This document shows positions 24,480 through 38,537 of a stretch of 64,000 nucleotides of DNA, piece by piece. The translations under genes were made by a program, and so were the position numbers. Numbering within the stretch: the first letter of the stretch is position 1; the number at the start of each line of letters is the position of its first letter. The stretch covers positions 4,206,501 to 4,270,500 of the forward strand of contig NZ_CP058214.1 in NCBI RefSeq assembly GCF_015482775.1. Reading direction: 5' to 3'. The notes below the pieces were generated by a model that made no database searches, had not been told where the DNA came from, and worked only from the letters and a program-made list of their open reading frames with translations. Origin of the DNA: Kaustia mangrovi. GTDB lineage: Bacteria > Pseudomonadota > Alphaproteobacteria > Rhizobiales > Im1.

Positions 24480-25244
24480 ATGGATCTCACGACCCTCGCC
24501 ATCCTGCTCGTGGCCGGCACGGTCGGCGGCGCCATCAACGCGGTCGCGGGCGGGGCGACCTTCTTCACCTTCCCCGCGCTGCTGAGTATCGGCCTGCCGC
24601 CGGTGACGGCGAACGCCTCCAACGCCGTGGCGCTGTGGCCGGGCCATGCCGCGGCGGTGCCCGCCTATCGCCGCGAGATCGCGAAGGCCCGGCACGGCCT
24701 CGTCTGGCGCGGGCTCGTGGCGCTCGCCGGCGGGGCGATCGGCGCCCAGCTCCTGCTGGCCACCGGCAACCGGCTGTTCGAGGCACTGATACCGTGGCTG
24801 CTGCTCGCCGCCACGCTGCTCTTCGCCTTCGGGCCGCGCCTGTCGCGCATCGTCGGGTCGGCGCAGGCGCGCAAGGCGGGCAGGGGCCTTGTCCTCGGTC
24901 TTGCCGTGGAATTCGCCTTCGCGGTCTATGGCGGTTATTTCGGGGCGGGGCTCGGCGTGCTCCTGATGGCCTGCCTGTCGCTGCTCGGCCATGACGACCT
25001 GCACGAGGCCAACGCACTGAAGAACCTGCTCGCCACGCTCGTGACGGCGGCCTCCGTGGCGAGCTTCGTGCTGGCCGGCGTCATCGCCTGGCCGGAAACG
25101 CTGGTGATGATCGGCGGGGCGATCTTCGGCGGCTATTTCGGCGCCCGCGCCGCGCGCAGCGTCGCGCCGGGCATCCTGCGCGCCATCATCATCGGCGTCG
25201 GCCTCATGATGAGCGGCTACTACTTCGTCGCCGTCTCGGTGTGA
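24480..25244 (+). CDS. TauE/SafE-family membrane exporter
   Basis: A 254-residue inner-membrane protein of the TauE/SafE (DUF81) family with about seven or eight spans. Family signatures are VGGAINAVAGGATFFTFPAL near the N-terminus and the matching half GGYFGAGLGVLLMACLSLLG near residue 145. Members export sulfite or related anions, but the substrate here is not known. The length is normal. It converges on moaA; a hairpin lies between them. Confidence 0.88.
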   Translation: MDLTTLAILLVAGTVGGAINAVAGGATFFTFPALLSIGLPPVTANASNAVALWPGHAAAVPAYRREIAKARHGLVWRGLVALAGGAIGAQLLLATGNRLFEALIPWLLLAATLLFAFGPRLSRIVGSAQARKAGRGLVLGLAVEFAFAVYGGYFGAGLGVLLMACLSLLGHDDLHEANALKNLLATLVTAASVASFVLAGVIAWPETLVMIGGAIFGGYFGARAARSVAPGILRAIIIGVGLMMSGYYFVAVSV

Positions 25245-26779: not shown

Positions 26780-27400
26780 ATGGCTATTGGGATGGCTGCC
26801 ACAGTGCAGGGAGGGGCATGGGAGGTCGCCGCTGAGGAACGCCTCAGGGCGGATCTCTATCGCATGTTCGCCCATTTCCTGAGGAAACCGCCGGATGACG
26901 GCGATCTGCGCATGGCCGCGGGGCTTGGCGGCGGAGATACCGCGCTCGGCGAGAAGCTTGCCGCCTTCGCGCATCTGGCGGAGACGGTCACCGCAGCCGA
27001 CGCCGCGCGCGAATATCACGAGCTCTTCATCGGCATGGGGCGCGGCGAGCTGCTGCCCTACGCCTCCTACTATCTCACCGGGTTCCTGCACGAGAAGCCG
27101 CTGGCGAAGCTGCGCACCGACATGGGCGAGCTCGGCATTGCGCGCCGCAGCGACGTGAAGGAGCCGGAGGACCATATCGCCGCGCTGAGCGAGATGATGG
27201 CGGGGCTGATCGACGGCGCGTTCGCGGAGCCGGCCGGGCTCGATGTCCAGAAGCGCTTCTTCGCCCGGCATCTGGAGCCGTGGGCGGCGCATTTCTTCAA
27301 GGATCTGGAGCAGGCGAAAAGCTCTGTCCTCTATGCGCCGCTCGGCGGGGCGGGCGCGGCCTTCATGGCGATAGAGCAGGCAGCCTTCGAGATGGTTTGA
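26780..27400 (+). CDS. TorD/DmsD-type molybdoenzyme chaperone
   Basis: A 206-residue all-helical chaperone of the TorD family. Such proteins bind the twin-arginine leader or the apo-catalytic subunit and hold it until the molybdenum cofactor is in place. Visible family features are the N-terminal [19 protein letters not shown], the motif [25 protein letters not shown] with the conserved LPYASYY, and [13 protein letters not shown]. It is the first gene of the formate dehydrogenase operon and very probably serves FdhA downstream. Start could also be the ATG four codons later. Confidence 0.9.
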
Positions 27401-27470
27401 GCGGCCGGAGGGCGAGGGGCCCTCTGGCTTTGAGACTTGGCGGGGGACGGCAGGAAAGGGAGTGTAGGCA

Positions 27471-27665
27471 ATGTCCGACAAAGACGGGAAGGTGCGCGCC
27501 GGCCGGCGCGACTTCATGAAGCTTGCGGGCCTGTCGGCGGTCACCGGCGGCACGTTCGCCGCCCTCGGGCAGGAGCCCGCGGAGGCGGCCGCGGCACCGC
27601 AGGAGGCGGGCAGCTATCGCGAGAGCGAGCATATCCGCACCTATTACCGTACGGCCCGGTTCTGA
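27471..27665 (+). CDS. Formate dehydrogenase region Tat-leader small protein
   Basis: A 64-residue protein with a twin-arginine signal ([17 protein letters not shown], about 11-27) and a short mature part of about 30 residues ending [13 protein letters not shown]. It fits the family called formate dehydrogenase region TAT target (TIGR02811), of unknown role, always found just upstream of fdhA. It may be an accessory subunit, an assembly factor, or a carrier for export. Not enough sequence is present to show function. Confidence 0.85.
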
Positions 27666-27773
27666 GACGGCCGGGGCGCGACGGCACATCCGGGGGCGCC
27701 GATTTGAAGTGTACCCACGTTTCTTCCGGCATGCGCGTGGCGGCCGGCGGGAACTTCAGGGAGGAACGTTGAG

Positions 27774-30668
27774 ATGCTGAGGAAGAAGACCGAAGGGATC
27801 GCGAGCACGTCCCGTCTGGCCTCCGTACTGGCGGATGTGACGGGCGGCGCCATAGACCGGCGCACCTTCCTGAGGCGATCGGGGCTGGCGGTCGGCGGTC
27901 TCACCGCGGCTGCGGGCCTGAAGGCCGGCATGGTCGGCCGGGCGGAGGCGGCGGAGACCTCCAGCGGCGATGCGGCGGAGATGAGGAAATCCGTTTGCAC
28001 CCATTGCTCGGTCGGCTGCACGGTGATGGCGGAGGTCACCAACGGCGTCTGGATCGGCCAGGAACCCGGCTGGGACAGCCCGTTCAATCTCGGTTCCCAC
28101 TGCGCCAAGGGCGCTGCGGTGCGCGAGCATGCCCATGGCGAGCGGCGCCTCAAATATCCCATGAAGCTGGTCGACGGCCAGTGGACCCGGGTGTCGTGGG
28201 ACGAGGCGATCAACGAGGTCGGCGACAAGCTTCTGGAGATCCGGGAGTCGTCCGGCCCCGATTCGGTCTACTGGCTGGGGTCGGCCAAGCACTCCAACGA
28301 GCAGGCCTATCTGTTCCGGAAATTCGCCGCCTTCTGGGGATCGAACAATGTCGATCACCAGGCGCGTATCTGTCATTCCACCACGGTCTCGGGCGTCGCG
28401 AACACCTGGGGCTACGGCGCGATGACCAATTCCTACAACGACATCCACAATTCGCGCTGCATCTTCCTGATCGGCGGCAATCCGGCGGAGGCCCATCCGG
28501 TCTCGCTGATGCACCTGCTCAAGGCGAAGGAGGAGAACAACGCCGATCTGATCGTCTGCGATCCGCGCTTCACGCGCACGGCCGCGCACGCCACCGAATA
28601 TGTGCGCTTCCGTCCGGGCGCCGACGTCGCGATGGTCTGGGGCCTGCTCTGGCACATCTTCGAGAATGGCTGGGAGGACAGGGAGTTCATCCGCCAGCGC
28701 GTCTGGGGCATGGACCATATCAGGGCCGAGGTCGCCAAGTGGACGCCCGACGAGGTGGAGAAGGTGACCGGCGTTCCCGAATCCCAGATGAAGCGGGTCG
28801 CGCGCAAGCTCGCCACCAACAAGCCGGGCACGGTGATCTGGTGCATGGGCGGCACGCAGCACACCAACGGCAACAACAATACGCGGGCCTACTGCGTGCT
28901 CCAGCTCGCGCTCGGCAATATGGGCACCGCCGGCGGCGGCACGAATATCTTCCGCGGCCACGACAACGTGCAGGGTGCGACCGACCTCGGCGTGCTGTGC
29001 CACACGCTGCCCGGCTATTACGGCCTGTCGGCGGGGGCATGGAAGCACTGGTCGCGCGTGTGGGACGTCGACTATGAGTATCTGAAGGGGCGGTTTGCCT
29101 CCGAGGAGCTCATGGGGGAGTCCGGCATTCCGGTCAGCCGCTGGTTCGACGGCGTGCTGGAGGCCAAGGACAATATGGACCAGCCGGACAATGTCCGCGC
29201 CATGGTCTTCTGGGGCCACGCGCCGAATTCGCAGACCCGCCTGCCCGACATGAAGAAGGCCATGGAGAAGCTCGACCTCCTCGTGGTGGTCGATCCCTAT
29301 CCGACCTTCTCCGCGGTCATGCAGGACCGCACCGACGGGGTCTATCTCCTTCCCGCCGCCACGCAGTTCGAGACCTCCGGCTCGGTGACCGCGTCGAACC
29401 GCTCGCTGCAATGGCGCGAGAAGGTGGTGGAGCCGCTGTTCGAGTCGCTGCCCGATCACACCATCATGTACAAGTTCGCCGGAAAGTTCGGCTTTGCCGA
29501 CGACATGTTCAAGAACATCGCGGTGGAGAACGACGAGCCCCTGGTGGAGGACATCACGCGGGAGTTCAACCGCGGCATGTGGACGATCGGCTATACCGGC
29601 CAGTCGCCGGAGCGGCTGAAGAAGCACATGGCGAACCAGCACACCTTCGACCGCACCACGCTTCTGGCCAATGGCGGCCCGTGCGACGGCGACTATTACG
29701 GCCTGCCGTGGCCGAGCTGGGGCACGCCGGAGATGAACCACCCGGGCACGCCGATCCTCTACGACACCTCCAAGCCGGTGGCTGAGGGCGGCCTGACCTT
29801 CCGGGCGCGCTTCGGCGTGAAGGCGCCCGACGAATGGGGCGGCGAGAACCTGCTCGCGGAAGGCTCCTATTCTGAAGGCTCCGAGCTCGAGGACGGCTAT
29901 CCGGAATTCACCTACGGCATGCTGAAGAAGCTCGGCTGGGATGTCGACCTGACGGGCGACGAGCGCACGGCCATCGAGACAATCGGCGGCGACGCGCCCG
30001 ACAAGGTGAACTGGAAGACGGACCTGTCCGGTGGCATCCAGCGTGTCGCCATCGCCCATGGCGCGGCCCCCTTCGGCAACGCCAAGGCGCGCTGCGTGGT
30101 GTGGACCTTCCCGGACCCGGTGCCCTTGCACCGCGAGCCGCTCTACACCCCGCGCAGGGACCTCCTGCCGAAATACGCCACCTATTCGGACCGCAGGATG
30201 TACCGCCTGCCGATCCGGTATGCCTCGATCCAGGAGACCGATTACTCCAAGGACTACCCGATGATACTGACCTCGGGGCGGCTGGTGGAGTATGAGGGCG
30301 GCGGCGACGAGACGCGGTCGAACCCGTGGCTCGCCGAGCTCCAGCAGCACATGTTCGTCGAGGTCAATCCCCGCGATGCCAACAATATCGGCATCAGGGA
30401 CGGCGAGATGGTCTGGGTGGAAGGCGCGGAGAAGGCCCGCGTGAAGGTCATGGCCATGGTGACGGAGCGGGTCGGCGAGGGCGTCGCCTTCATGCCGTTC
30501 CACTTCGCCGGCTGGTACCAGGGCGAGGACCGGCGGCACAAATATCCCAAGGGCGCCGACCCCTATGTGATCGGCGAGGCGTCCAACACGGCGCAGACCT
30601 ACGGCTATGACTCGGTGACCAACATGCAGGAAACCAAGGTCACCCTCTGCAAGATCGAGAAAGTGTAA
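27774..30668 (+). CDS. Periplasmic formate dehydrogenase, catalytic alpha subunit
   Basis: A 964-residue molybdenum or tungsten bis-MGD enzyme oxidising formate to carbon dioxide. A twin-arginine leader (RRTFLRRSGLAVGG, about 29-42) sends it to the periplasm with its cofactor already inserted. The first 4Fe-4S cluster is bound by Cys75, Cys78, Cys82 and Cys110. The active-site metal ligand is Cys200, next to His201 (ARICHSTT), so it is a cysteine enzyme rather than a selenocysteine one. The C-terminal pterin-binding domain (LTSGRLVEYEGGGDETRSN) is complete. GGAGG precedes the ATG. The TorD gene upstream and moaA nearby support maturation. Confidence 0.95.
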   Translation: MLRKKTEGIASTSRLASVLADVTGGAIDRRTFLRRSGLAVGGLTAAAGLKAGMVGRAEAAETSSGDAAEMRKSVCTHCSVGCTVMAEVTNGVWIGQEPGWDSPFNLGSHCAKGAAVREHAHGERRLKYPMKLVDGQWTRVSWDEAINEVGDKLLEIRESSGPDSVYWLGSAKHSNEQAYLFRKFAAFWGSNNVDHQARICHSTTVSGVANTWGYGAMTNSYNDIHNSRCIFLIGGNPAEAHPVSLMHLLKAKEENNADLIVCDPRFTRTAAHATEYVRFRPGADVAMVWGLLWHIFENGWEDREFIRQRVWGMDHIRAEVAKWTPDEVEKVTGVPESQMKRVARKLATNKPGTVIWCMGGTQHTNGNNNTRAYCVLQLALGNMGTAGGGTNIFRGHDNVQGATDLGVLCHTLPGYYGLSAGAWKHWSRVWDVDYEYLKGRFASEELMGESGIPVSRWFDGVLEAKDNMDQPDNVRAMVFWGHAPNSQTRLPDMKKAMEKLDLLVVVDPYPTFSAVMQDRTDGVYLLPAATQFETSGSVTASNRSLQWREKVVEPLFESLPDHTIMYKFAGKFGFADDMFKNIAVENDEPLVEDITREFNRGMWTIGYTGQSPERLKKHMANQHTFDRTTLLANGGPCDGDYYGLPWPSWGTPEMNHPGTPILYDTSKPVAEGGLTFRARFGVKAPDEWGGENLLAEGSYSEGSELEDGYPEFTYGMLKKLGWDVDLTGDERTAIETIGGDAPDKVNWKTDLSGGIQRVAIAHGAAPFGNAKARCVVWTFPDPVPLHREPLYTPRRDLLPKYATYSDRRMYRLPIRYASIQETDYSKDYPMILTSGRLVEYEGGGDETRSNPWLAELQQHMFVEVNPRDANNIGIRDGEMVWVEGAEKARVKVMAMVTERVGEGVAFMPFHFAGWYQGEDRRHKYPKGADPYVIGEASNTAQTYGYDSVTNMQETKVTLCKIEKV

Positions 30669-30679
30669 GGAGGCACACC

Positions 30680-31273
30680 ATGGCGAGGATGAAGTTCCTG
30701 TGTGATGCCGACCGTTGCATCGAATGCAATGCGTGTGTCACCGCCTGCAAGAACGAGAACGAGGTGCCCTGGGGCATCAACCGGCGCCGGGTCGTCACCA
30801 TCAATGACGGCAAGCCCGGCGAGCGCTCGATCTCGGTGGCCTGCATGCACTGCTCCGACGCGCCGTGCATCGCCGTCTGCCCGGTCGACTGCATCTACCA
30901 GACCGATGTCGGCGTGGTGCTGCACAACAAGGATCTGTGCATCGGCTGCGGCTACTGCTTCTATGCCTGCCCGTTCGGCGCGCCGCAGTTCCCGCAGGTC
31001 GGCAATTTCGGCACCCGCGGCAAGATGGACAAGTGCACCTTCTGCAATGGCGGCCCCGAGCCCGACAATTCCGAGGCGGAGTTCAAGAAATACGGCCGCA
31101 ACCGGCTCGCGGAGGGCAAGCTGCCGCTGTGTGCGGAGATGTGCTCGACCAAGGCGCTGCTCGCCGGCGACGGCGACATCGTGGCCGATATCTACCGCGA
31201 GCGCGTCGTCGCGCGCGGTTTCGGCTCCGGTGCCTGGGGCTGGGGCAAGGCCTATCCGGGCCAGCCGTCCTGA
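30680..31273 (+). CDS. Formate dehydrogenase beta subunit (four 4Fe-4S clusters)
   Basis: A 197-residue iron-sulfur electron-transfer subunit that carries electrons from FdhA to the cytochrome b subunit. Sixteen ligand cysteines are grouped as CIECNACVTACKNE (about 13-26), CMHCSDAPCIAVCP (about 55-68), CIGCGYCFYACPFG and the pair CTFC with CAEMC. No export signal of its own is seen, so it presumably travels with FdhA through Tat. AGGAGG precedes the ATG, 11 bases after the fdhA stop. Confidence 0.94.
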   Translation: MARMKFLCDADRCIECNACVTACKNENEVPWGINRRRVVTINDGKPGERSISVACMHCSDAPCIAVCPVDCIYQTDVGVVLHNKDLCIGCGYCFYACPFGAPQFPQVGNFGTRGKMDKCTFCNGGPEPDNSEAEFKKYGRNRLAEGKLPLCAEMCSTKALLAGDGDIVADIYRERVVARGFGSGAWGWGKAYPGQPS

Positions 31274-31282
31274 CCGAACGCA

Positions 31283-31319
31283 CCGAAGGGGGCGGCAGGC
31301 GCCCTGCCGCCCCCTTCGG
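31283..31319 (+). repeat. Perfect 17-bp hairpin between fdhB and the lipoprotein gene
   Basis: Arms 31283-31299 and 31303-31319 are exact reverse complements around CGC, with a stem almost entirely G and C. No T-run follows, and the next gene starts 42 bases later, so it is more likely a partial terminator, an mRNA stabiliser or a processing site that sets subunit ratios than a full stop. It lies just after the iron-sulfur subunit gene. Confidence 0.7.
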
Positions 31320-31361
31320 CCATGCCGTATCGAGGCCAATCGACGAGACGGGACATTGGGA

Positions 31362-31565
31362 ATGGTATCTGCGCGCGCACTCACTGCGGCGGCCCTGATC
31401 GCGGCCCTCGGGCTGTCGGTCGCGGGATGCCGGGAGGCCGAGCTCGACAAGACGGTCTCGATAGAGAAGGGACACTATACGGGCCCGAGGAACCCGCCGC
31501 TGAGCGAGGCGACGCTCGACGAGCTCCGCCAGCGCCAGAAGCTGCAGAGCTCCTCCAGCCTTTGA
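31362..31565 (+). CDS. Small lipoprotein of the formate dehydrogenase operon
   Basis: A 67-residue protein with a signal peptide and a lipobox, LSVAGC, giving lipid attachment at Cys23. The mature part of about 44 residues (REAELDKTVSIEKGHY onward) is charged and short. No family is recognised. Its place between the beta and gamma subunit genes suggests a role in anchoring or assembling the complex at the periplasmic side of the membrane. The ATG at 31362 has GGGA just upstream. Confidence 0.65.
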   Translation: MVSARALTAAALIAALGLSVAGCREAELDKTVSIEKGHYTGPRNPPLSEATLDELRQRQKLQSSSSL

Positions 31566-31594
31566 CGGGGGCGAGACGGAAAGGGACGGGTGCC

Positions 31595-32767
31595 ATGACA
31601 GCCAGACGACCGGTTCCGGACACGGCCCGCGGGCGAGGCCTCCGGGCCATGCTCGCCATCCTGTTCTGCATGATCTGCCTCGCTGCGCCGGGTGCCGCCA
31701 TGGCGCAGGCGGTGGTGCCGCCCGACGATGCCTCGCCCTCCGCCGGCCCGCCGGGCGGCGGCGTGCCGACGGAGTCGCTGGGGGCGAGCTCGGATGCGGA
31801 TATGTGGCGGGCGGTCCGCCAGGGCGTGGAAGGGCAGGTCTCCATCCCCGACAAGCAGGCGGGTGTCCTGATCCAGTCCGACGGCGAGGTCTGGCGCGTC
31901 GTGCGCAACGGGCCCGTCACCTTCTATGGCGGCATGGCGGTGATCGGCATCGTGCTGCTTCTTGCGCTCTTCTTCCTGATCCGCGGCCGGGTCCGGGTCG
32001 AGGCCGGTCTCGCCGGCGTCACCATCAGCCGGTTCAACGGGCTTGAGCGCTTCTCCCACTGGCTGACCGCCGTCTCCTTCCTGATCCTCGCCTTCACCGG
32101 GCTGAACGTGATGTTCGGGCGCTATCTGCTCAAGCCGCTGATCGGCGCGCAGGCCTTCGCCGACATCACGCTCGCCGGCAAGTTCCTGCACAACTATGTC
32201 GCCTTCGCCTTCATGGCCGGTCTCGTGCTCGTGCTCGTCCTGTGGATCAAGGACAATATCCCGAACCGGTACGATCTCGTCTGGATCGGCAAGGCGGGCG
32301 GCATGCTCTCGCGCGGCACCCATCCGCCGGCGAAGAAGTTCAATGCCGGCCAGAAGGTCATCTTCTGGCTCGTCGTGCTCGGCGGGCTGTCGGTGAGCCT
32401 GTCCGGCATCTCGCTCCTGTTCCCGTTCCAGACGGCGTTCTTCTCCAAGACCTTCGAGGCCGTCAACCTGCTCGGCTTCGATCTGCCGGCCAACCTCACC
32501 GCCATGCAGGAGATGCAGCTCTCGCAGGTGTGGCACGGCGTGGTCGCCCTGTTCCTCGTCATCGTCATCATCGCGCATATCTATATCGGCACGATCGGCA
32601 TGGAGGGCGCCTTCGACGCGATGGGCTCGGGCCGGGTCGATCTCAACTGGGCGCGCGAGCACCATTCGATCTGGGTGGAGGAGCTGGAGCGCAAGGGTGC
32701 GCTCGATCCGCGCCCGGCCGAGGACGCGGAGACGGCCGAGACAGCGAAGCCGCAGGCGGCGAGCTAG
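31595..32767 (+). CDS. Formate dehydrogenase gamma subunit (cytochrome b)
   Basis: A 390-residue membrane subunit of the FdnI/cytochrome b561 type that takes electrons from the beta subunit and passes them to quinone. A signal peptide (about 1-38) and a periplasmic segment of about 70 residues precede one further span at about 107-127. Then come four core spans with likely haem histidines in RFSHWLTA, FLHNYVAF, QVWHGVV and AHIYIGT. The C-terminal tail is Glu/Ala rich. It completes an FdhABC-type periplasmic enzyme. Confidence 0.9.
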   Translation: MTARRPVPDTARGRGLRAMLAILFCMICLAAPGAAMAQAVVPPDDASPSAGPPGGGVPTESLGASSDADMWRAVRQGVEGQVSIPDKQAGVLIQSDGEVWRVVRNGPVTFYGGMAVIGIVLLLALFFLIRGRVRVEAGLAGVTISRFNGLERFSHWLTAVSFLILAFTGLNVMFGRYLLKPLIGAQAFADITLAGKFLHNYVAFAFMAGLVLVLVLWIKDNIPNRYDLVWIGKAGGMLSRGTHPPAKKFNAGQKVIFWLVVLGGLSVSLSGISLLFPFQTAFFSKTFEAVNLLGFDLPANLTAMQEMQLSQVWHGVVALFLVIVIIAHIYIGTIGMEGAFDAMGSGRVDLNWAREHHSIWVEELERKGALDPRPAEDAETAETAKPQAAS

Positions 32768-32830
32768 CACGGGTCCGGAACGGTTTCCATGCGCTCCGGG
32801 CAGGCGAATTGCCGGAGACGGGCCTGAACC

Positions 32831-34219
32831 ATGGCAAGGTGTCGGGAGCACCGGCCCATCGGGGTCGTGATCGTCGGGCTTTGCGCGGCAGCCGCCATAG
32901 CCGTCGTGGCGTGCGCGGGCACGGCAGCGCGTGCCGGCGAGCCGCTCGACGGCCATGGCGGGCCGGTCGGCGATATCGCCATATCCGGCCGGTTCGCCCT
33001 GACGGCGAGCTTCGACTATTCGCTCATCCACTGGCTGCTCGAGCCGGAGCCGATGGCGCTCGCGCGCCTGATCGGCCACGAGGCAGGGGTCAATGCGGGC
33101 GCCTTCGTGCCCGGCGGCAAGCGGGCCGTGTCGGGCGGGGACGACGGGCTGGTGGCGGTCTGGTCGCTTGAGCGCGGCACGCTCGCGGCGAGGCTGGAGG
33201 GCCATCGCGGACGGGTCGTCGACATCGCCGTCTCGCCCGATGGCCGCCATGCGGCGTCTGCCGGCTGGGACGGAACGGCGCGGCTCTGGAGCCTCCAGAC
33301 GTTGGCCCTCCATGCCGTGCTCAAGGGCCACACCGACCATGTCAACGCCGTCGCCTTCCAGCCAGACGGCGCCCGGCTCTACACCGCCGGCGCCGATGGC
33401 ACGATCCGGGCCTGGCGGGTGCGCGACGGCACCGCGCTCAGCACCGTCCACGATCATGGATGGGGCGTGAACGCGCTGGCCGTGCTGCCCGGCGACCGGG
33501 GCCTCGCCTTCGCGGCGACGGACGGCACGGTCGCGGTCGTCGATCCGGACACCGGCACGCTCACGCACGAATTCGCCGGCGCGGAGCGGCCTGTCCTCGC
33601 GCTGGCTGTCTCGCCGGACGGCACGCGCCTGGCGGCGGGCGGGGCGGACGGGTCTATCCGGGTCTGGTCCCTGCCGGACTGGAAACTCGTGCGCGAGGGC
33701 TGGCAGGCCGGCGGGCCCGTCTGGTCGCTGGCCTTCGCAGCCGACGGGGAAAGCCTCTATCATGGCGGCATGGACGCCCGCACCTTTCACTGGGACATGA
33801 CGGGCCCGGAAGTCGCCGGGACCGCCGCGCCGCGGGACGGGGCCCCGGTGGTGGCGGCCGACCCCGGCGAGCGCCAGTTCGCCCGTCATTGTGCCATATG
33901 CCACACGCTCACGCCGTCCGGCGGCAATCGTGCCGGACCGACGCTCTACCGCCTGTTCGGCCGGCGCGCGGGATCGCTTCCTGACTATCCCTATTCCCCG
34001 GCGCTCGATTCCTCGGATATCGTGTGGACGGAGGAGACCGTCGAGCGCCTGTTCGCGGAGGGGCCGCACAAGGTGGTGCCGGGCAGCAAGATGCCGCTGC
34101 AGCGCATGGGCGACCCCGTGGCGCGCCGCGCGCTTGTCGGTTACCTGAAACGCATGACGGACGGGCCGGCGGGCCCGTCCCGCAGCACTTCGCCATCGCT
34201 GGGAGAGCCGGCGCGCTGA
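32831..34219 (+). CDS. WD40-propeller fused to a c-type cytochrome
   Basis: A 462-residue exported protein. A signal peptide or membrane anchor covers about 1-36, then seven WD40-like blades run from about 38 to 325 (GHRGRVVDIAVSPDG, GHTDHVNAVAFQPDG and similar repeats), then one c-type cytochrome domain. Haem is attached at Cys354, Cys357 and His358 (CAICH); Met421 in GSKMPLQRM is the likely distal ligand. The overall shape fits a periplasmic electron carrier tied to a binding platform. It follows fdhC by 63 bases. An electron outlet or redox partner for the formate dehydrogenase is inferred, not shown. Confidence 0.85.
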   Translation: MARCREHRPIGVVIVGLCAAAAIAVVACAGTAARAGEPLDGHGGPVGDIAISGRFALTASFDYSLIHWLLEPEPMALARLIGHEAGVNAGAFVPGGKRAVSGGDDGLVAVWSLERGTLAARLEGHRGRVVDIAVSPDGRHAASAGWDGTARLWSLQTLALHAVLKGHTDHVNAVAFQPDGARLYTAGADGTIRAWRVRDGTALSTVHDHGWGVNALAVLPGDRGLAFAATDGTVAVVDPDTGTLTHEFAGAERPVLALAVSPDGTRLAAGGADGSIRVWSLPDWKLVREGWQAGGPVWSLAFAADGESLYHGGMDARTFHWDMTGPEVAGTAAPRDGAPVVAADPGERQFARHCAICHTLTPSGGNRAGPTLYRLFGRRAGSLPDYPYSPALDSSDIVWTEETVERLFAEGPHKVVPGSKMPLQRMGDPVARRALVGYLKRMTDGPAGPSRSTSPSLGEPAR

Positions 34220-34240
34220 TGCGAGCATGGAGACAGAGGC

Positions 34241-34366
34241 ATGAAGGCGTTTCTCATGAGTTTACTGGCGGTCGCGGTCGTCTCGCTGGTCGCCCTCTAT
34301 ACGCTGGAGGAGCTGGGCTGGACGTCGCAATCCGTCTACTCCAGCCAGTCCGTCAGGCTCGACTGA
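34241..34366 (+). CDS. 41-residue single-span membrane protein
   Basis: A short frame starting MKAFLMSLLAVAVVSLV and ending SSQSVRLD, preceded by GGAGACAGAGGC. One hydrophobic helix covers about residues 3-20; the rest (TLEELGWTSQSVYSSQSVRLD) would lie in the periplasm. It lies between the cytochrome and protease genes with almost no gap. Small proteins ending in a (S/A)VRLD-like tail occur beside formate dehydrogenase genes in related bacteria, as I recall. Too short for standard gene finders. Confidence 0.65.
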   Translation: MKAFLMSLLAVAVVSLVALYTLEELGWTSQSVYSSQSVRLD

Positions 34367-34374
34367 CACACGGC

Positions 34375-35355
34375 ATGGCGATCCCCGTGCGCCACGTCGC
34401 GATGGCCTCGGCCGTCGCCGCAAGTCTCATGCTGCCAACCGGCGCGGCCCTGGCCGACAAGGCCGGCGGGCGGCCGTCCTCCGCCGTCATCCGCACGGCC
34501 ATGGAAAGCGTGGTGAGCGTCCTGCCGGACTGGCCGCGCAAGGAGGAGGGGGGAGACGAGCCGGAAGGCTCCGGCGTGGTGATCCTCGACGGCCACCAGA
34601 TCATCACGGCGGGCCATGTGATCGGGGCGGCGGAGACCATGCGTGTGCGCACCGACGATGGGGATATCCTGCGCGCCCGCCTCGTGGGGACGGACGAGGC
34701 GACCGACCTCTCGCTTCTGCGGGTCGGTCGGGCGCTCAGGCCGATCGCCTTTGCCGGCGAGCCCGAGCTGGGCGATCCGGTCTGCGCCATCGGCAACGTC
34801 TTCGGGCTCGGGCTGTCGGTGAGCTGCGGAATGGTCTCCGCCGTCCATCGCGCGGGCGTCGGCTTCAACGCCATCGAGGATTTCATCCAGACCGACGCGG
34901 CTGTCAATCCGGGCGCGTCCGGCGGGGCGCTGATCGATGCGAGCGGACGGCTTGCCGGCGTGCTGTCGGCGATCTTCACCAAGAGCATGGACGCCAATAT
35001 CGGCGTCAATTTCGCCGTGTCGTCGCCGCTGGCGGAAAAGGTCGCCAGGGCGCTCGCCGCCAGAGGGCATGTCCGGTGGAAGCCCCTGGGCGCCATTCTC
35101 GCCGCTTCGCCACCGCCGGGGGAGACCGGCCGGCAGCTTGTGGAGGTCGTGAGGGTTGTGCCCAACAGCCCCGCCGGGGTTGCGGGGTTGAAGCGGGGCG
35201 ATAAGATCGTGCACATGGGGAAACGCCGCGTCATGGCGCCGGCCGATGTGACAAGCGCCTATGTGAGCGCGAAATCCGGCGACGTGTTGCGCATCACGAT
35301 CGAACGCGCGGGTGCCGAGCGCGAACTATTGCTCGTCGTTCCGGACCAGCCGTGA
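34375..35355 (+). CDS. Periplasmic trypsin-like serine protease with PDZ domain
   Basis: A 326-residue DegP/DegS-like protease. A signal peptide (about 1-27) is followed by an S1C domain with the triad His81 (ITAGHVIG), Asp111 (ATDLSLL) and Ser182 (NPGASGGAL), then one PDZ domain (about 232-325). The serine motif is GASGG where the classical one is GNSGG. It is shorter than DegP, with one PDZ. It begins eight bases after the 41-residue gene. A task in quality control or processing of the formate dehydrogenase parts is inferred from position. Confidence 0.88.
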   Translation: MAIPVRHVAMASAVAASLMLPTGAALADKAGGRPSSAVIRTAMESVVSVLPDWPRKEEGGDEPEGSGVVILDGHQIITAGHVIGAAETMRVRTDDGDILRARLVGTDEATDLSLLRVGRALRPIAFAGEPELGDPVCAIGNVFGLGLSVSCGMVSAVHRAGVGFNAIEDFIQTDAAVNPGASGGALIDASGRLAGVLSAIFTKSMDANIGVNFAVSSPLAEKVARALAARGHVRWKPLGAILAASPPPGETGRQLVEVVRVVPNSPAGVAGLKRGDKIVHMGKRRVMAPADVTSAYVSAKSGDVLRITIERAGAERELLLVVPDQP

Positions 35356-35396
35356 CGCCTGGACGGTCCGGGAGGTCATCATGTCAGGAGGCCATC

Positions 35397-35594
35397 ATGG
35401 ATGAAGACAAGTTCAACATGTCCCTGCGCAAGTTCCTCAAGCAGGTCGGCGTGACCTCGCAGCGCGAGATCGAGGACGCCGTCCGCAAGGCCGGCAAGAC
35501 GCAGGGCAAGGTGCCCGTCAAGGTCGTCCTCACCAGCGAGGCGGTGGGCCTGACCCACGTGGTCGAGGGCGAGATCGATCTGGGCGGAACGTGA
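35397..35594 (+). CDS. Small DUF6494-like protein
   Basis: A 65-residue cytoplasmic protein, MDEDKFNMSLRKFLKQVGV to the end, with a helical N-terminal half and a strand-rich C-terminal half. It matches what I remember as the DUF6494 family of uncharacterised alphaproteobacterial proteins; the number should be checked. AGGAGG precedes the chosen ATG, and an in-frame upstream region has no such site. It opens a group of tightly packed genes that follow the protease. Confidence 0.75.
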   Translation: MDEDKFNMSLRKFLKQVGVTSQREIEDAVRKAGKTQGKVPVKVVLTSEAVGLTHVVEGEIDLGGT

Positions 35595-35622
35595 CCTCCG
35601 CCGGCCAGGTCTGACGGTCGCG

Positions 35623-36369
35623 ATGGACCAGCGGGACCCGACCTTTCCACCGCTCATGTCCGGCCGCGTCGCGGTCGACCCGCCGGACCCCTTCGCCTGC
35701 GCGAAGGACGCCGCCGCGCGCGGCGAGGCCTCGGCGGGCGAGGTCTTCTGGCTGCCTGACCGGGATCGGGTGAGGCTTGCCGTGGTGCTCGAGCCCGACG
35801 TGCCGGCCGAACGCGCGGTGCAGATGCAGTTCGCCATGATGGTCGCCGCGGGCGACGCGCTGGGCGCTGCGGGGCCGCCGGAGATGGCGGTCCATTACCG
35901 CTGGCCGGGCGTCATCGCGGTCAACGGTGCCGTGGCCGGCGAGGTGCGTCTCGCCCTGCCGGACGATGCGGGGACCGGCGACGTGCCGCGCTGGCTCGTG
36001 GTGGCGCTCGACCTGGCGCTGGCGCGCCCGGAGGGGGCGCCCGAGCCCGGCGAGGAGGCCGGCCGCACGACGCTTCGCGACGAGGGGCTCGGCGATATCG
36101 GTCCCAGTGCGCTCATCGAATCGCTCTGCCGCCATTTCCTGGTGTGGATCCATCTGTGGACCGATGACGGCTTCCGGCCCGTTCACGATGCCTGGATGGC
36201 GCGGCTCGAGGGCGGCGGCGGGGACACGGAGGCGGCCGCGGACGGTGCGAGAGGCCGCGCCATGGGGCTGGAGGAGGACGGGAGCCTTCTGCTGCGCACG
36301 GAGGAGGGCATGCGGGCCTGCGCCTTCATGGACCATGTCGAGCGGGTGGCCGGCGAGGGGGCGTCGTGA
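35623..36369 (+). CDS. Biotin/lipoate-ligase-like protein with altered active-site motif
   Basis: A 248-residue protein resembling the BPL/LplA/LipB fold with a C-terminal DUF4444 part. The segment that in biotin ligases reads K-WPND appears here as HYRWPGVIAVNGAVAGEVRL, where the catalytic lysine and the ND are not kept, and the N-terminal GRGRRGR motif is absent. So it may bind a cofactor or a protein without ligating, or use other residues. It overlaps the next gene by four bases. A role in formate dehydrogenase assembly is inferred. Confidence 0.75.
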   Translation: MDQRDPTFPPLMSGRVAVDPPDPFACAKDAAARGEASAGEVFWLPDRDRVRLAVVLEPDVPAERAVQMQFAMMVAAGDALGAAGPPEMAVHYRWPGVIAVNGAVAGEVRLALPDDAGTGDVPRWLVVALDLALARPEGAPEPGEEAGRTTLRDEGLGDIGPSALIESLCRHFLVWIHLWTDDGFRPVHDAWMARLEGGGGDTEAAADGARGRAMGLEEDGSLLLRTEEGMRACAFMDHVERVAGEGAS

Positions 36370-36851
36370 AGTTCCTGCGCGTCATCCGCTTCGACCGGTC
36401 GGACGACCATGTCTTCGCCCGGGCCGCGGAGCCCGACGAGTGGGCGGTGTCCGGCGCCTTCTCCTTCATTGCCCTTCGCCCATCGGATATCGTCGGCAAG
36501 ACCCGTCAGGCCTTCGTGAACGGCTTTCTCGGCCTGCCGAGCTTCGGCCGGTCGACCTTCGCCGTCATCGCGGAGATGGGGGATGCGGAGCGCGGCCTCG
36601 TGGAAGGCTGGCTTGCCGACCATGCGCTTGCCGAGCACGGCGCGCCCGACCGCGCGGCGGCGCTTGCCGCGGCGCGCGACGAGATCGCCTTCGTGGCCGG
36701 TCTGTGCGAGGAAAAGCCGATCAACACCGTTCTCGCCGTTCACCGGCATCTGGACGACGAGGGCGCGATCCGCGAGGCCTTCCGGGAAATCGCTCCGCCG
36801 GGCGAGCCGCGCCATGCCCGCATCTGGGACATCGCCGATGACGATACCTGA
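36366..36851 (+). CDS. DUF6505-like protein
   Basis: A 161-residue protein starting MKFLRVIRFDRSDDHVFARAAEPDEW, begun by GTG overlapping the previous stop by four bases. It has no signal peptide, membrane span or cysteine cluster beyond one Cys near residue 119. It matches what I recall as DUF6505, with no known function. The tight overlaps on both sides mean it is made with the ligase-like protein and the following DUF6352-like protein. Confidence 0.7.
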   Translation: MKFLRVIRFDRSDDHVFARAAEPDEWAVSGAFSFIALRPSDIVGKTRQAFVNGFLGLPSFGRSTFAVIAEMGDAERGLVEGWLADHALAEHGAPDRAAALAAARDEIAFVAGLCEEKPINTVLAVHRHLDDEGAIREAFREIAPPGEPRHARIWDIADDDT

Positions 36852-37857
36852 CTTCTGGCTGAGTTCGGGCTTCCATCTTCTCGAGCGCAACGAGCGGGGC
36901 GAGCTCGCGGTCACGCCCGCTTTTGTCGGGGCCTATCTCGCCCGGCCGGAAATGGCGCCGGTCGCGGAATCCTGCCCGGAGGAGGTCGCGCTCCATGCGG
37001 GCCTCGAGGCGGATCCGCTGTCGGCGGTGCCGGAGGCGCGTCTCGCCGCGCTCGCCGACGAGGATGTCCGCGACAATTACCGGATCTTCCTGGGGTTCCG
37101 CGACCTGCTCGTGCGGGCCGGTACGCTGGAGGCGGCCTATATGACGATCCTGCGGGGCGCGCCGGTGCCCGTGCCGCCGCTCTTCGTCGACCAGATCGTC
37201 CATGCGGTCCTGCGCAACATCCTCGACGATTGCTCCGATCCGCTGCGCCTGCGCGCCGCGGAGCTGTTCTTCCGCGACCAGCGCGTCTCCACCGACGAGG
37301 GGCGCGTCATTCTCGCCGACGAGGAGACGGTGGAGATGTATGCCCGCACGGGCGGCTTCGGCGGCCTCGGCCAGTTGCTGGCGGAGGCGGGCACGGCGCC
37401 GCGCGCGGTCGATCTCGACGTTCTGGGCGAGGACAACAAGGCCATCTACTGGGCGCGCTCCGACCGGTTCGACACCGCCATCGACATTCGCTTCACCCAG
37501 CCCGCGCTCGACGCCTTCGCCCGCGTGATGGAGGCCTGGATCGGCCATTTCCTCAAGCTGCGCGTGCGCATCCAGCCCGTCCAGCGCATCGACGACGAGG
37601 CGTGGCGCTGGCATATCGGGCTCGACGCGGAAGCCTCGCGCATCCTGAACGCGCTCTATCGCGGGACGCCGCTCGGCGAGAGCGACATGGAGCAGATCAT
37701 CGCGCTGTTCCGGATGGAGGTGCGTGACCGCGACGCGATCATGGAGGAGATGCGCGGCCGGCCGATCTATCTCGCGCTCGCCAAGGAACAGGCCGGGACG
37801 CTCAAGATGAAACCGCAGAACCTGCTCGCCAACCTGCCGCTCATGGCGGAGGTGTGA
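36838..37857 (+). CDS. DUF6352-like protein
   Basis: A 339-residue cytoplasmic protein starting MTIPDFWLSSGFHLLERNERG. It is mostly helical by composition, with conserved-looking blocks FFRDQRVSTDEGRVILADEE and DVLGEDNKAIYWARSDRFDT. It matches what I recall as DUF6352, of unknown function. The gene overlaps the previous one by 14 bases. Association with formate dehydrogenase loci is the only clue to its role. Confidence 0.75.
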   Translation: MTIPDFWLSSGFHLLERNERGELAVTPAFVGAYLARPEMAPVAESCPEEVALHAGLEADPLSAVPEARLAALADEDVRDNYRIFLGFRDLLVRAGTLEAAYMTILRGAPVPVPPLFVDQIVHAVLRNILDDCSDPLRLRAAELFFRDQRVSTDEGRVILADEETVEMYARTGGFGGLGQLLAEAGTAPRAVDLDVLGEDNKAIYWARSDRFDTAIDIRFTQPALDAFARVMEAWIGHFLKLRVRIQPVQRIDDEAWRWHIGLDAEASRILNALYRGTPLGESDMEQIIALFRMEVRDRDAIMEEMRGRPIYLALAKEQAGTLKMKPQNLLANLPLMAEV

Positions 37858-37862
37858 GGGCC

Positions 37863-38180
37863 ATGGGCGCGCGCGGCCGGCACTCCGTCCTCGACCGGTG
37901 GCCCGCCCGTGCGCTGGCCGCCGCGGTGGTGCTCGCATGCCTGGCCGCCATGGCCTATATCGCCCGCGACCGCCTGTTCCCGTCCTCGCGGGATGCCGCC
38001 GGCGAGGGGCTCAATCCGGACTTCGTGGCCTGCCGCGACCAGCGGCTCGGCGAGGTGCGGCAGATGCGCGAGGACGGCCTCATCACCGCCGACCAGCTCG
38101 AGACCTTCACCGCCCGCGCCATCGGCTATTGCGCGGACCGGTTCCCGCCGGATGCCCGGGGGCCGGTGCAGCAGGGCTGA
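37863..38180 (+). CDS. Small single-span protein closing the operon
   Basis: A 105-residue protein with one N-terminal membrane helix (about 17-35, ALAAAVVLACLAAMAYIA) and a soluble part of about 65 residues with two cysteines (VACRDQRLG and GYCADRF) that could form a disulfide in the periplasm. I chose the ATG at 37863, which has GGAGG upstream; a GTG at 37854 overlaps the previous stop. I do not recognise the family. Confidence 0.6.
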   Translation: MGARGRHSVLDRWPARALAAAVVLACLAAMAYIARDRLFPSSRDAAGEGLNPDFVACRDQRLGEVRQMREDGLITADQLETFTARAIGYCADRFPPDARGPVQQG

Positions 38181-38198: not shown

Positions 38199-38537
38199 TC
38201 AGGATTGCGCGCGCTTCGGACCGTAGAAGATCACCCAGACCTTGAAATCGTCGGTGAAGGTCTCGAAGCGGTGCGGCATGTGGGCGGGCACGTAGAGCAG
38301 GTCGCCCGGGCCGAAGTCCACGAGGTCCTCGCCCCGGCTGAAGGTGCCCGTGCCGTCCGCGACGATATAGAGCTCGTCGCGGTCGTGCGGCGTCTGCCGG
38401 TCGGTGCCGACCGGGGCGTAGAGCTCCACCGTGACGTCGTCTCCCCGGTCGAGGACCACATGGAACGGCGTGTCCGGCGCGAGGCGGGAGAAAGCCTCCG
38501 CCACCGTCGTCTTCAGCATGGGCTTGTCGTTCGGCAT
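38199..38537 (-). CDS. Cupin-domain protein
   Basis: A 112-residue single-domain cupin. The metal-binding motifs are visible: TPHDRDELYIVADGTGTF (His and Glu ligands near residues 50-55) and PGDLLYVPAHMPHRFE (His near 86-90). It is likely a small metal-dependent enzyme or sensor; the substrate is unknown. A GTG at 38546 overlaps the preceding gene's stop by four bases, so it is coupled to the PPOX gene and a start three codons earlier is possible. Confidence 0.85.
   Translation of the reverse strand: MPNDKPMLKTTVAEAFSRLAPDTPFHVVLDRGDDVTVELYAPVGTDRQTPHDRDELYIVADGTGTFSRGEDLVDFGPGDLLYVPAHMPHRFETFTDDFKVWVIFYGPKRAQS

Follow-up and report, generated by a model that had tools for sequence, protein, structure and literature searches.

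A candidate set of enzyme-specific assembly genes at an FDH3-type formate dehydrogenase locus of Kaustia mangrovi

The window analysed here is a stretch of 64,000 nucleotides from Kaustia mangrovi (contig NZ_CP058214.1, positions 4,206,501 to 4,270,500), and our subject is a locus within it that encodes a predicted periplasmic formate dehydrogenase (FDH) together with a series of accessory proteins. Fourteen genes, all on the plus strand, span window positions 26780-38180; they are listed here in order, as read from the window sequence, its open reading frames (ORFs) and matches to Pfam and NCBIfam.

26780-27400, plus strand: TorD/NarJ-type chaperone (PF02613, 108.8 bits against a cut-off of 22.2)
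27471-27665, plus strand: small Tat-leader protein, formate_TAT-like (TIGR02811, 45.5 bits, just below the cut-off of 48.45)
27774-30668, plus strand: FdhA, catalytic subunit (Tat leader RRTFLRR; active-site cysteine in RICHS)
30680-31273, plus strand: FdhB, iron-sulfur beta subunit of FDH3 type (NF038355, 341.7 bits, cut-off 240)
31362-31565, plus strand: small lipoprotein (lipobox LSVAGC by eye; no family)
31595-32767, plus strand: FdhC, cytochrome b gamma subunit with an N-terminal extension (TIGR01583, 166 bits, cut-off 115.85; region given as 31589-32764)
32831-34219, plus strand: fusion of a WD40 propeller and a c-type cytochrome (CAICH; leader by eye)
34241-34366, plus strand: p41, a 41-residue single-pass membrane microprotein (tail ...SVRLD)
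34402-35355, plus strand: HtrA/DegP-like protease, trypsin domain and one PDZ domain (leader by eye; start uncertain, 34375-34402)
35397-35594, plus strand: DUF6494 (PF20104, 101.5 bits)
35623-36369, plus strand: putative pseudo-biotin-ligase (PF16917, FDH-linked subfamily; BPL_LplA_LipB_2, 211 bits)
36366-36851, plus strand: DUF6505 (PF20115, 172.3 bits)
36838-37857, plus strand: DUF6352 (PF19879, 318.8 bits)
37854-38180, plus strand: TM108, 108 residues with one membrane segment by eye (no family)

A preliminary description of this DNA had reported overlapping genes, and these are real: 4 nucleotides are shared by the ligase-like and DUF6505 genes, 14 by DUF6505 and DUF6352, and 4 by DUF6352 and TM108. 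Its domain identities are confirmed by Pfam and NCBIfam, allowing for the sub-threshold score of the Tat-leader protein, whose gene has the same position in relatives, and every gene that it named is present on the one strand, but it counted 13 genes where its own list sums to 14. By its sequence matches the FdhABC core is predicted to be a periplasmic formate dehydrogenase of the FDH3 type, and so an enzyme of a known kind; among solved chains, 9vap_A is closest to FdhA (1401 bits) and 9vap_B to FdhB (333.7 bits). The source genome, a single contig of 4.63 Mb, has one FDH3 beta subunit over the cut-off.

The accessory genes were followed through 190 genomes of Alphaproteobacteria that include the window's own (class sample), through 398 genomes of the phylum, some of them shared with the class sample (phylum sample), and through the neighbourhoods of DUF6352 in the best 80 loci, all from other species, among at least 577 relatives that an alignment of DUF6352 proteins brought to light in 84,980 species genomes. 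FDH3, scored in the class sample by a match to FDH3_beta over its cut-off, is present in 27 of the 190 genomes. DUF6352 occurs in 26 class genomes, of which 23 are FDH3-positive; DUF6505 is over its cut-off in 19 (a count that omits G091, with a single match below the cut-off), 17 of them FDH3-positive; and the subfamily to which the ligase-like protein belongs, at a threshold of at least 120 bits picked after the gap in scores was visible, is found in 21, including 19 with FDH3. The parent family PF16917 is matched in 124 class genomes at E ≤ 0.001 (108 over cut-off) and splits into BirA-like proteins and this FDH-linked subfamily. Taken together, DUF6352, DUF6505 or both are carried by 26 of the 27 FDH3 genomes and by four of the 163 others. 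In one of these, G127, the same contig also holds FdhA, TorD and the Tat-leader gene; the frame in G119 is broken, and G007 and G071 are fragmented into approximately 810 and 660 contigs respectively. G075 (locus L028), alone among the 27, has neither family and retains DUF6494. The latter family occurs in 32 class genomes, only 19 of them FDH3-positive; the 13 without FDH3 include small genomes of 1.0-1.6 Mb (G008, G030, G118, G142, G155 and G161), and some other or additional role for DUF6494 is therefore indicated.

Across the phylum sample all 26 genomes with DUF6352 are FDH3-positive, against a base rate for FDH3 of 61 in 398. Six of these genomes belong to other classes, and there DUF6352 and FDH3 lie far apart, by 2.8 Mb along the contig in G241 (1.6 Mb by the shorter path if that contig is circular), about 180 kb in G412 and about 745 kb in G440, or on different contigs (G500, G544 and G569). 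Most of the mapped FDH3 loci of other classes have the 4Fe-4S protein, TorD, the Tat-leader protein and FdhABC, with no DUFs. Within this sample, then, DUF6352 implies FDH3, while FDH3 does not everywhere need DUF6352. One locus of the same phylum and another class (L181, in G286) brings DUF6505, the pseudo-ligase, the 4Fe-4S protein, FDH3 and p41 together within approximately 0-11 kb, which suggests horizontal transfer of the set.

Gene order around DUF6352 is also conserved beyond chance. In the 80 loci, many on short contigs, DUF6352 is accompanied by the ligase-like gene in 42, DUF6505 in 38 and DUF6494 in 35; by FdhC in 34, FdhB in 33 and FdhA in 30; by the WD40-cytochrome in 33, another 4Fe-4S protein in 32, the Tat-leader gene in 31 and TorD in 28; and by TM108 in 25, the lipoprotein in 14 and the protease in 10, one copy of which (L068) is on the opposite strand. 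The full order from TorD to DUF6352 is kept in 13 of the 80, scored with the lipoprotein and p41 left aside, these being undetected or unscored in some loci; it is complete with the protease in L065, L075, L079 and L080 and without it in L082, L089, L095, L097, L103, L105, L108, L124 and L139, and is seen in L170 and L171 also. On annotated plasmids of Sinorhizobium meliloti and Sagittula stellata, where order and overlaps are conserved as well, the set adjoins fdh3B, the latter with no DUF6352 in the stretch shown, and a Methylobacterium bullatum record contains both DUF6352 and DUF6505. In the Sagittula stellata locus (L200, 11257-12306) a gene for an Mrp/NBP35-type ATPase, a possible partner in Fe-S delivery, stands directly before the pseudo-ligase gene.

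Three further genes are more unevenly shared. The protease, which exceeds the cut-offs of PF13365 and PF13180 and falls below that of the NCBIfam Do-family model, has the place (before DUF6494) and orientation of the window in nine of the 80 loci and is local to close relatives, and among 100 loci with FdhA, FdhB or FdhC the lipoprotein is found in 27 and TM108 in 24. All three are narrower in distribution. Hence the proposal that an accessory unit of ten genes surrounds this enzyme is upheld in that a set tracks FDH3 (DUF6352, DUF6505 and the ligase subfamily, at the class-sample counts given above) and includes DUFs of which no description was found, but these are not one block of ten equal partners, as DUF6494 and the protease make plain.

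In biotin ligases the motif RQxxGRGRRGR forms the ATP/biotin loop and the lysine of KWPND is catalytic. Aligned with ten BirA controls from the same class, all 11 residues of the loop are missing from each of 26 FDH-linked sequences (0/26 against 10/10), the KWPND lysine is likewise found in none of the 26 and in all ten controls, and a second lysine is kept in two of the 26 and in all ten. Among 73 ligase-like ORFs from all loci, the window included (E ≤ 1e-20), none has a GRGR-type loop and 72 are without KWPN. Thirteen further or borderline PF16917 matches have KWPND in 12 cases, and the thirteenth, in G071, belongs to the FDH-linked subfamily. The closest solved chain, 3bfm_A (203.8 bits, matched over nearly the full length), is labelled 'Biotin protein ligase-like protein of unknown function'. 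Because its ligase motifs are lost, the protein appears to be a binding protein built on an inactive ligase fold.

FdhE offers a point of comparison. A review treats the fdhE gene as a systematic companion of periplasmic FDHs and suggests proofreading as the task of its product (PMC10609526). None of the 27 FDH3-positive class genomes has a match to FdhE (PF04216), nor does the source genome, and the six class genomes in which it is over the cut-off are all FDH3-negative; a further match, in G101, is below the cut-off and has a stop. This pattern suggests that the FDH3 enzymes here may be made without FdhE. The pseudo-ligase, DUF6505 and DUF6352 do not match the Pfam FdhE family. FdhD is encoded by two copies elsewhere in the source genome.

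The cluster itself appears to be split. The 4Fe-4S protein that is a usual member of the cluster in relatives is found in the source genome at 0.79 Mb (G000:C1:790541-792610, L155; 55% identity), 3.4 Mb from fdhB in contig coordinates and 1.2 Mb the other way round, and beside it are DUF3305- and DUF3306-like frames, recognised by eye. The unit first proposed was therefore incomplete, since this part of it lies outside the window. In other genomes dmsD/torD-fdh operons neighbour the 4Fe-4S protein, DUF3305 and DUF3306 (PMC4464133).

A peptide resembling p41 recurs directly 3' of the WD40-cytochrome gene; it has approximately 40-55 residues and one membrane helix, begins with MK(A)F or a similar sequence and in most cases ends in a VRL-like motif. 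A listing by position places p41 at 39 of 56 places, among which L024 looks spurious and L119 is without the VRL tail; together with a profile, it supersedes a strict text-pattern search that had found two loci only. The profile, seeded with 14 examples (13 from loci and the window's own) and applied to 160 loci at E ≤ 0.005, matches 61 of the 91 loci with FdhC, none of the 57 without FdhA, FdhB, FdhC and the WD40-cytochrome, and none of the remaining 12. Of the 61 matches, 52 are at E ≤ 1e-5; the other nine are weaker, and some of them (L028 is an example) may be spurious. Loci outside the seeds contribute 48 of the 61. By coarse distances, 55 lie within 600 nucleotides of the gene for FdhC or the WD40-cytochrome, and 48 follow it on the same strand. 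Six related sequences give 15 pairs, and in the 11 for which dS is finite the ratio of non-synonymous to synonymous divergence (dN/dS) is 0.12-0.41, at dS values close to saturation. p41 is a conserved coding gene with a pattern of purifying selection, and the window peptide and ten relatives match no Pfam or NCBIfam family at cut-off. Small subunits of the CydX type have about 40 residues and one membrane helix and are encoded beside a redox complex. In size, single helix and neighbouring redox complex p41 recalls these, with no sequence family link found, and it is probably a small subunit or an assembly peptide.

The accessory genes are associated with FDH3 as the counts describe, and from this we infer a biochemical role. 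The reading that we favour, with reasonable though by no means full confidence, is of an FDH3-type FdhABC locus with a dedicated accessory set, in which the pseudo-ligase, DUF6505 and DUF6352 are assembly or proofreading factors specific to this class of enzyme. These three proteins have no leader peptide discernible by eye in the window sequences, and would for that reason be cytoplasmic; along with the TorD-type chaperone they may bind and act on FdhA and FdhB before export by the Tat pathway, taking the part that FdhE plays for the periplasmic enzymes of Escherichia coli. Sulfuration of the cofactor would be left to FdhD, encoded elsewhere. After export FdhC would anchor the enzyme, and p41, the lipoprotein and the WD40-cytochrome c may be its envelope partners, in assembly or as an electron outlet. 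A broader claim is more tentative and we put it a little short of even: that this would be an undescribed, FdhE-independent maturation system for a class of periplasmic FDHs, combining a dead biotin-ligase fold with two families of no recognised solved fold, and with p41 as a genuine subunit or assembly factor.

Several observations weigh against this interpretation. In the class sample FDH3 is found without DUF6352 in four genomes (G022, G096, G154 and G075) and without DUF6505 in ten of the 27, and DUF6352 is missing from 35 of the 61 FDH3 genomes of the phylum sample, so that FDH3 apparently can mature without it. The Fisher p-values for co-occurrence in the class sample ignore shared ancestry. 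The mutual exclusion of FdhE and FDH3 fails as a statistic (probability 0.39), FdhE being rare in the class (6/190). Neither DUF family is explained by its predicted structure: the confident models of DUF6352 (predicted local distance difference test, pLDDT, 94.8; predicted template modelling score, pTM, 0.91) and DUF6505 (pLDDT 93.6, pTM 0.84), compared whole with solved structures by Foldseek, gave no clear match (best E 0.9 and 0.12 respectively). A comparison by VIA was similar, with a best Z of 2.9 over 86 residues at 6.4 Å for DUF6352 and of 3.7 over 61 residues at 3.7 Å for DUF6505, and a profile search of the sequences of solved structures returned nothing at E ≤ 1 for DUF6352 and two chance-level matches for DUF6505. 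The absence of a clear match to these predicted models does not prove new folds. No cysteine is found among the invariant or nearly invariant columns of either family, which point to no particular chemistry, and there is for this reason no indication that either family itself carries out sulfur transfer or Fe-S chemistry.

Physical linkage weighs on the same side. FdhA, FdhB or FdhC lies within the fetched stretch, the scope in which proximity was judged, in 37 of the 80 DUF6352 loci and none of them in 43. If proximity is the only criterion, about half of the DUF6352 genes are thus unlinked, an outcome that counts against a strict 'unit'. The preliminary description had staked its unit on such proximity, and for DUF6352 the outcome is borderline; it is rescued when whole genomes are considered. 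FDH3 is present elsewhere in the genome for 32 of 36 loci without FdhA, FdhB or FdhC (33 of 37 with L099), the check having covered all but L066, L067, L072, L078, L081, L093 and L101 of the 43; the four FDH3-negative loci (L070, L094, L102 and L137) are all records of metagenome-assembled genomes. L129 and the class-sample genome G028 are very probably one and the same, given the identical position of FDH3, and in L132 FDH3 probably starts just past the stretch because TorD and the Tat-leader gene stand at its edge. Among 26 loci compared, no alternative partner or pathway shared by unlinked DUF6352 genes was found, their neighbours, judged by eye from sequence, being clade-specific and resembling housekeeping genes. 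One candidate explanation for FDH3 genomes without DUF6352, a difference between cysteine and selenocysteine enzymes, is excluded, since RICHS, with cysteine, occurs alike in loci with and without DUF6352; as in the window, FdhA ORFs that score above 900 bits across the loci have it in 93 of 94 cases, the exception being L047. The latter (in G184) and L040 (in G159) hold second FDH3 copies for which the accessory block is not in the fetched stretch.

Other functions for DUF6505, DUF6352 and the pseudo-ligase must be weighed. That they regulate FDH3, for instance by sensing formate or redox state to adjust its synthesis or activity, would fit the same coupling data; we nevertheless think it unlikely, as none of the three has a DNA-binding or known sensor domain in Pfam or NCBIfam, and genes that overlap within a structural operon would more usually be assembly genes. 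A wider role in molybdenum or tungsten supply, or in a cofactor that FDH3 needs, could be argued from the divergent moaA gene beside the locus, from the molybdopterin genes, mobA and ABC transporter that flank the S. meliloti cluster, and from a marginal match of DUF6505 to Nitro_FeMo-Co (E 0.15, below cut-off). A general factor would, however, be expected also in genomes that have other molybdenum or tungsten enzymes but no FDH3, and DUF6352 is never so found in 398 genomes, an indirect argument, with other molybdenum and tungsten enzymes uncounted, that leaves this role distinctly improbable in our judgement. It is very unlikely that the accessory genes are neighbours through operon inheritance only, with no functional link: the patchy protease, DUF6494, lipoprotein and TM108 would suit such an account, but hitchhiking is disfavoured for DUF6352 because its co-occurrence with FDH3 persists when the two are unlinked. 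Finally, the ligase-like protein is a Pfam BPL_LplA_LipB_2 member that retains a BirA-like body and C-terminal part in alignment and has relatives annotated as biotin/lipoate--protein ligase, but with the loop and lysine lost as counted above it is highly improbable that it works as an active lipoate- or biotin-type ligase attaching a cofactor to an FDH partner.

Assembly factors specific to FDH3 remain our preferred reading, and parts of the locus have precedents. FDH3 (fdh3DABC) of Methylobacterium extorquens PA1 is called periplasmic (PMC12180729) and, compared by description, resembles the window in having a periplasmic FDH with A, B and C genes, the window beta subunit exceeding the FDH3_beta cut-off; in the portion of that account available the pseudo-ligase, DUF6505, DUF6352 and p41 go unmentioned. 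Operons of the DmsD/TorD-fdhGHI type, with DUF3305, DUF3306, fer4 and fdh tat, likewise combine a TorD-family chaperone, a Tat-leader protein and an FDH core (PMC4464133), and the 4Fe-4S/DUF3305/DUF3306/TorD/Tat-leader part is already described there; the available text does not name the pseudo-ligase, DUF6505, DUF6352, p41 or WD40-cytochrome c. FdhD and FdhE of E. coli are also dedicated accessory proteins for a Tat-exported FDH (PMC10609526); FdhD is found here as well, the difference being FdhE. BirA-type ligases differ from the window protein in their motifs, despite the nearly full-length match to 3bfm_A. Soluble FDH dominates in Cupriavidus, where the text seen names no accessory DUF (PMC11540253). 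Searches by name across 5.39 million papers found no mention of DUF6505, DUF6352 or DUF6494, and a search pairing WD40 with FDH found nothing.

Around the locus, moaA is the divergent upstream neighbour, on the minus strand, with a TauE/SafE-type exporter (24480-25244, plus strand) upstream of it; downstream are convergent frames, a cupin (ORF at 38199) and a PNPOx-like gene. A scan of the locus found one site resembling a promoter, where chance predicts 1.0, and eight resembling terminators, where it predicts 4.0; this is uninformative on operon limits.

As a whole, the arrangement would be one of enzyme-specific accessory proteins for an exported molybdenum enzyme, and it prompts one to ask how, in the absence of FdhE, an FDH exported by the Tat pathway is proofread. 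Producing metal-dependent FDHs in foreign hosts is a problem under active study, and for another M. extorquens FDH the title of a 2026 paper names alpha-subunit maturation as the major bottleneck (PMC13396061). Should assembly require DUF6352, DUF6505 and the pseudo-ligase, their co-expression would be a direct test and possibly a tool. Annotators, for their part, gain a functional setting for two DUF families, for a subfamily of ligase-like proteins and for a microprotein that has so far gone unannotated.

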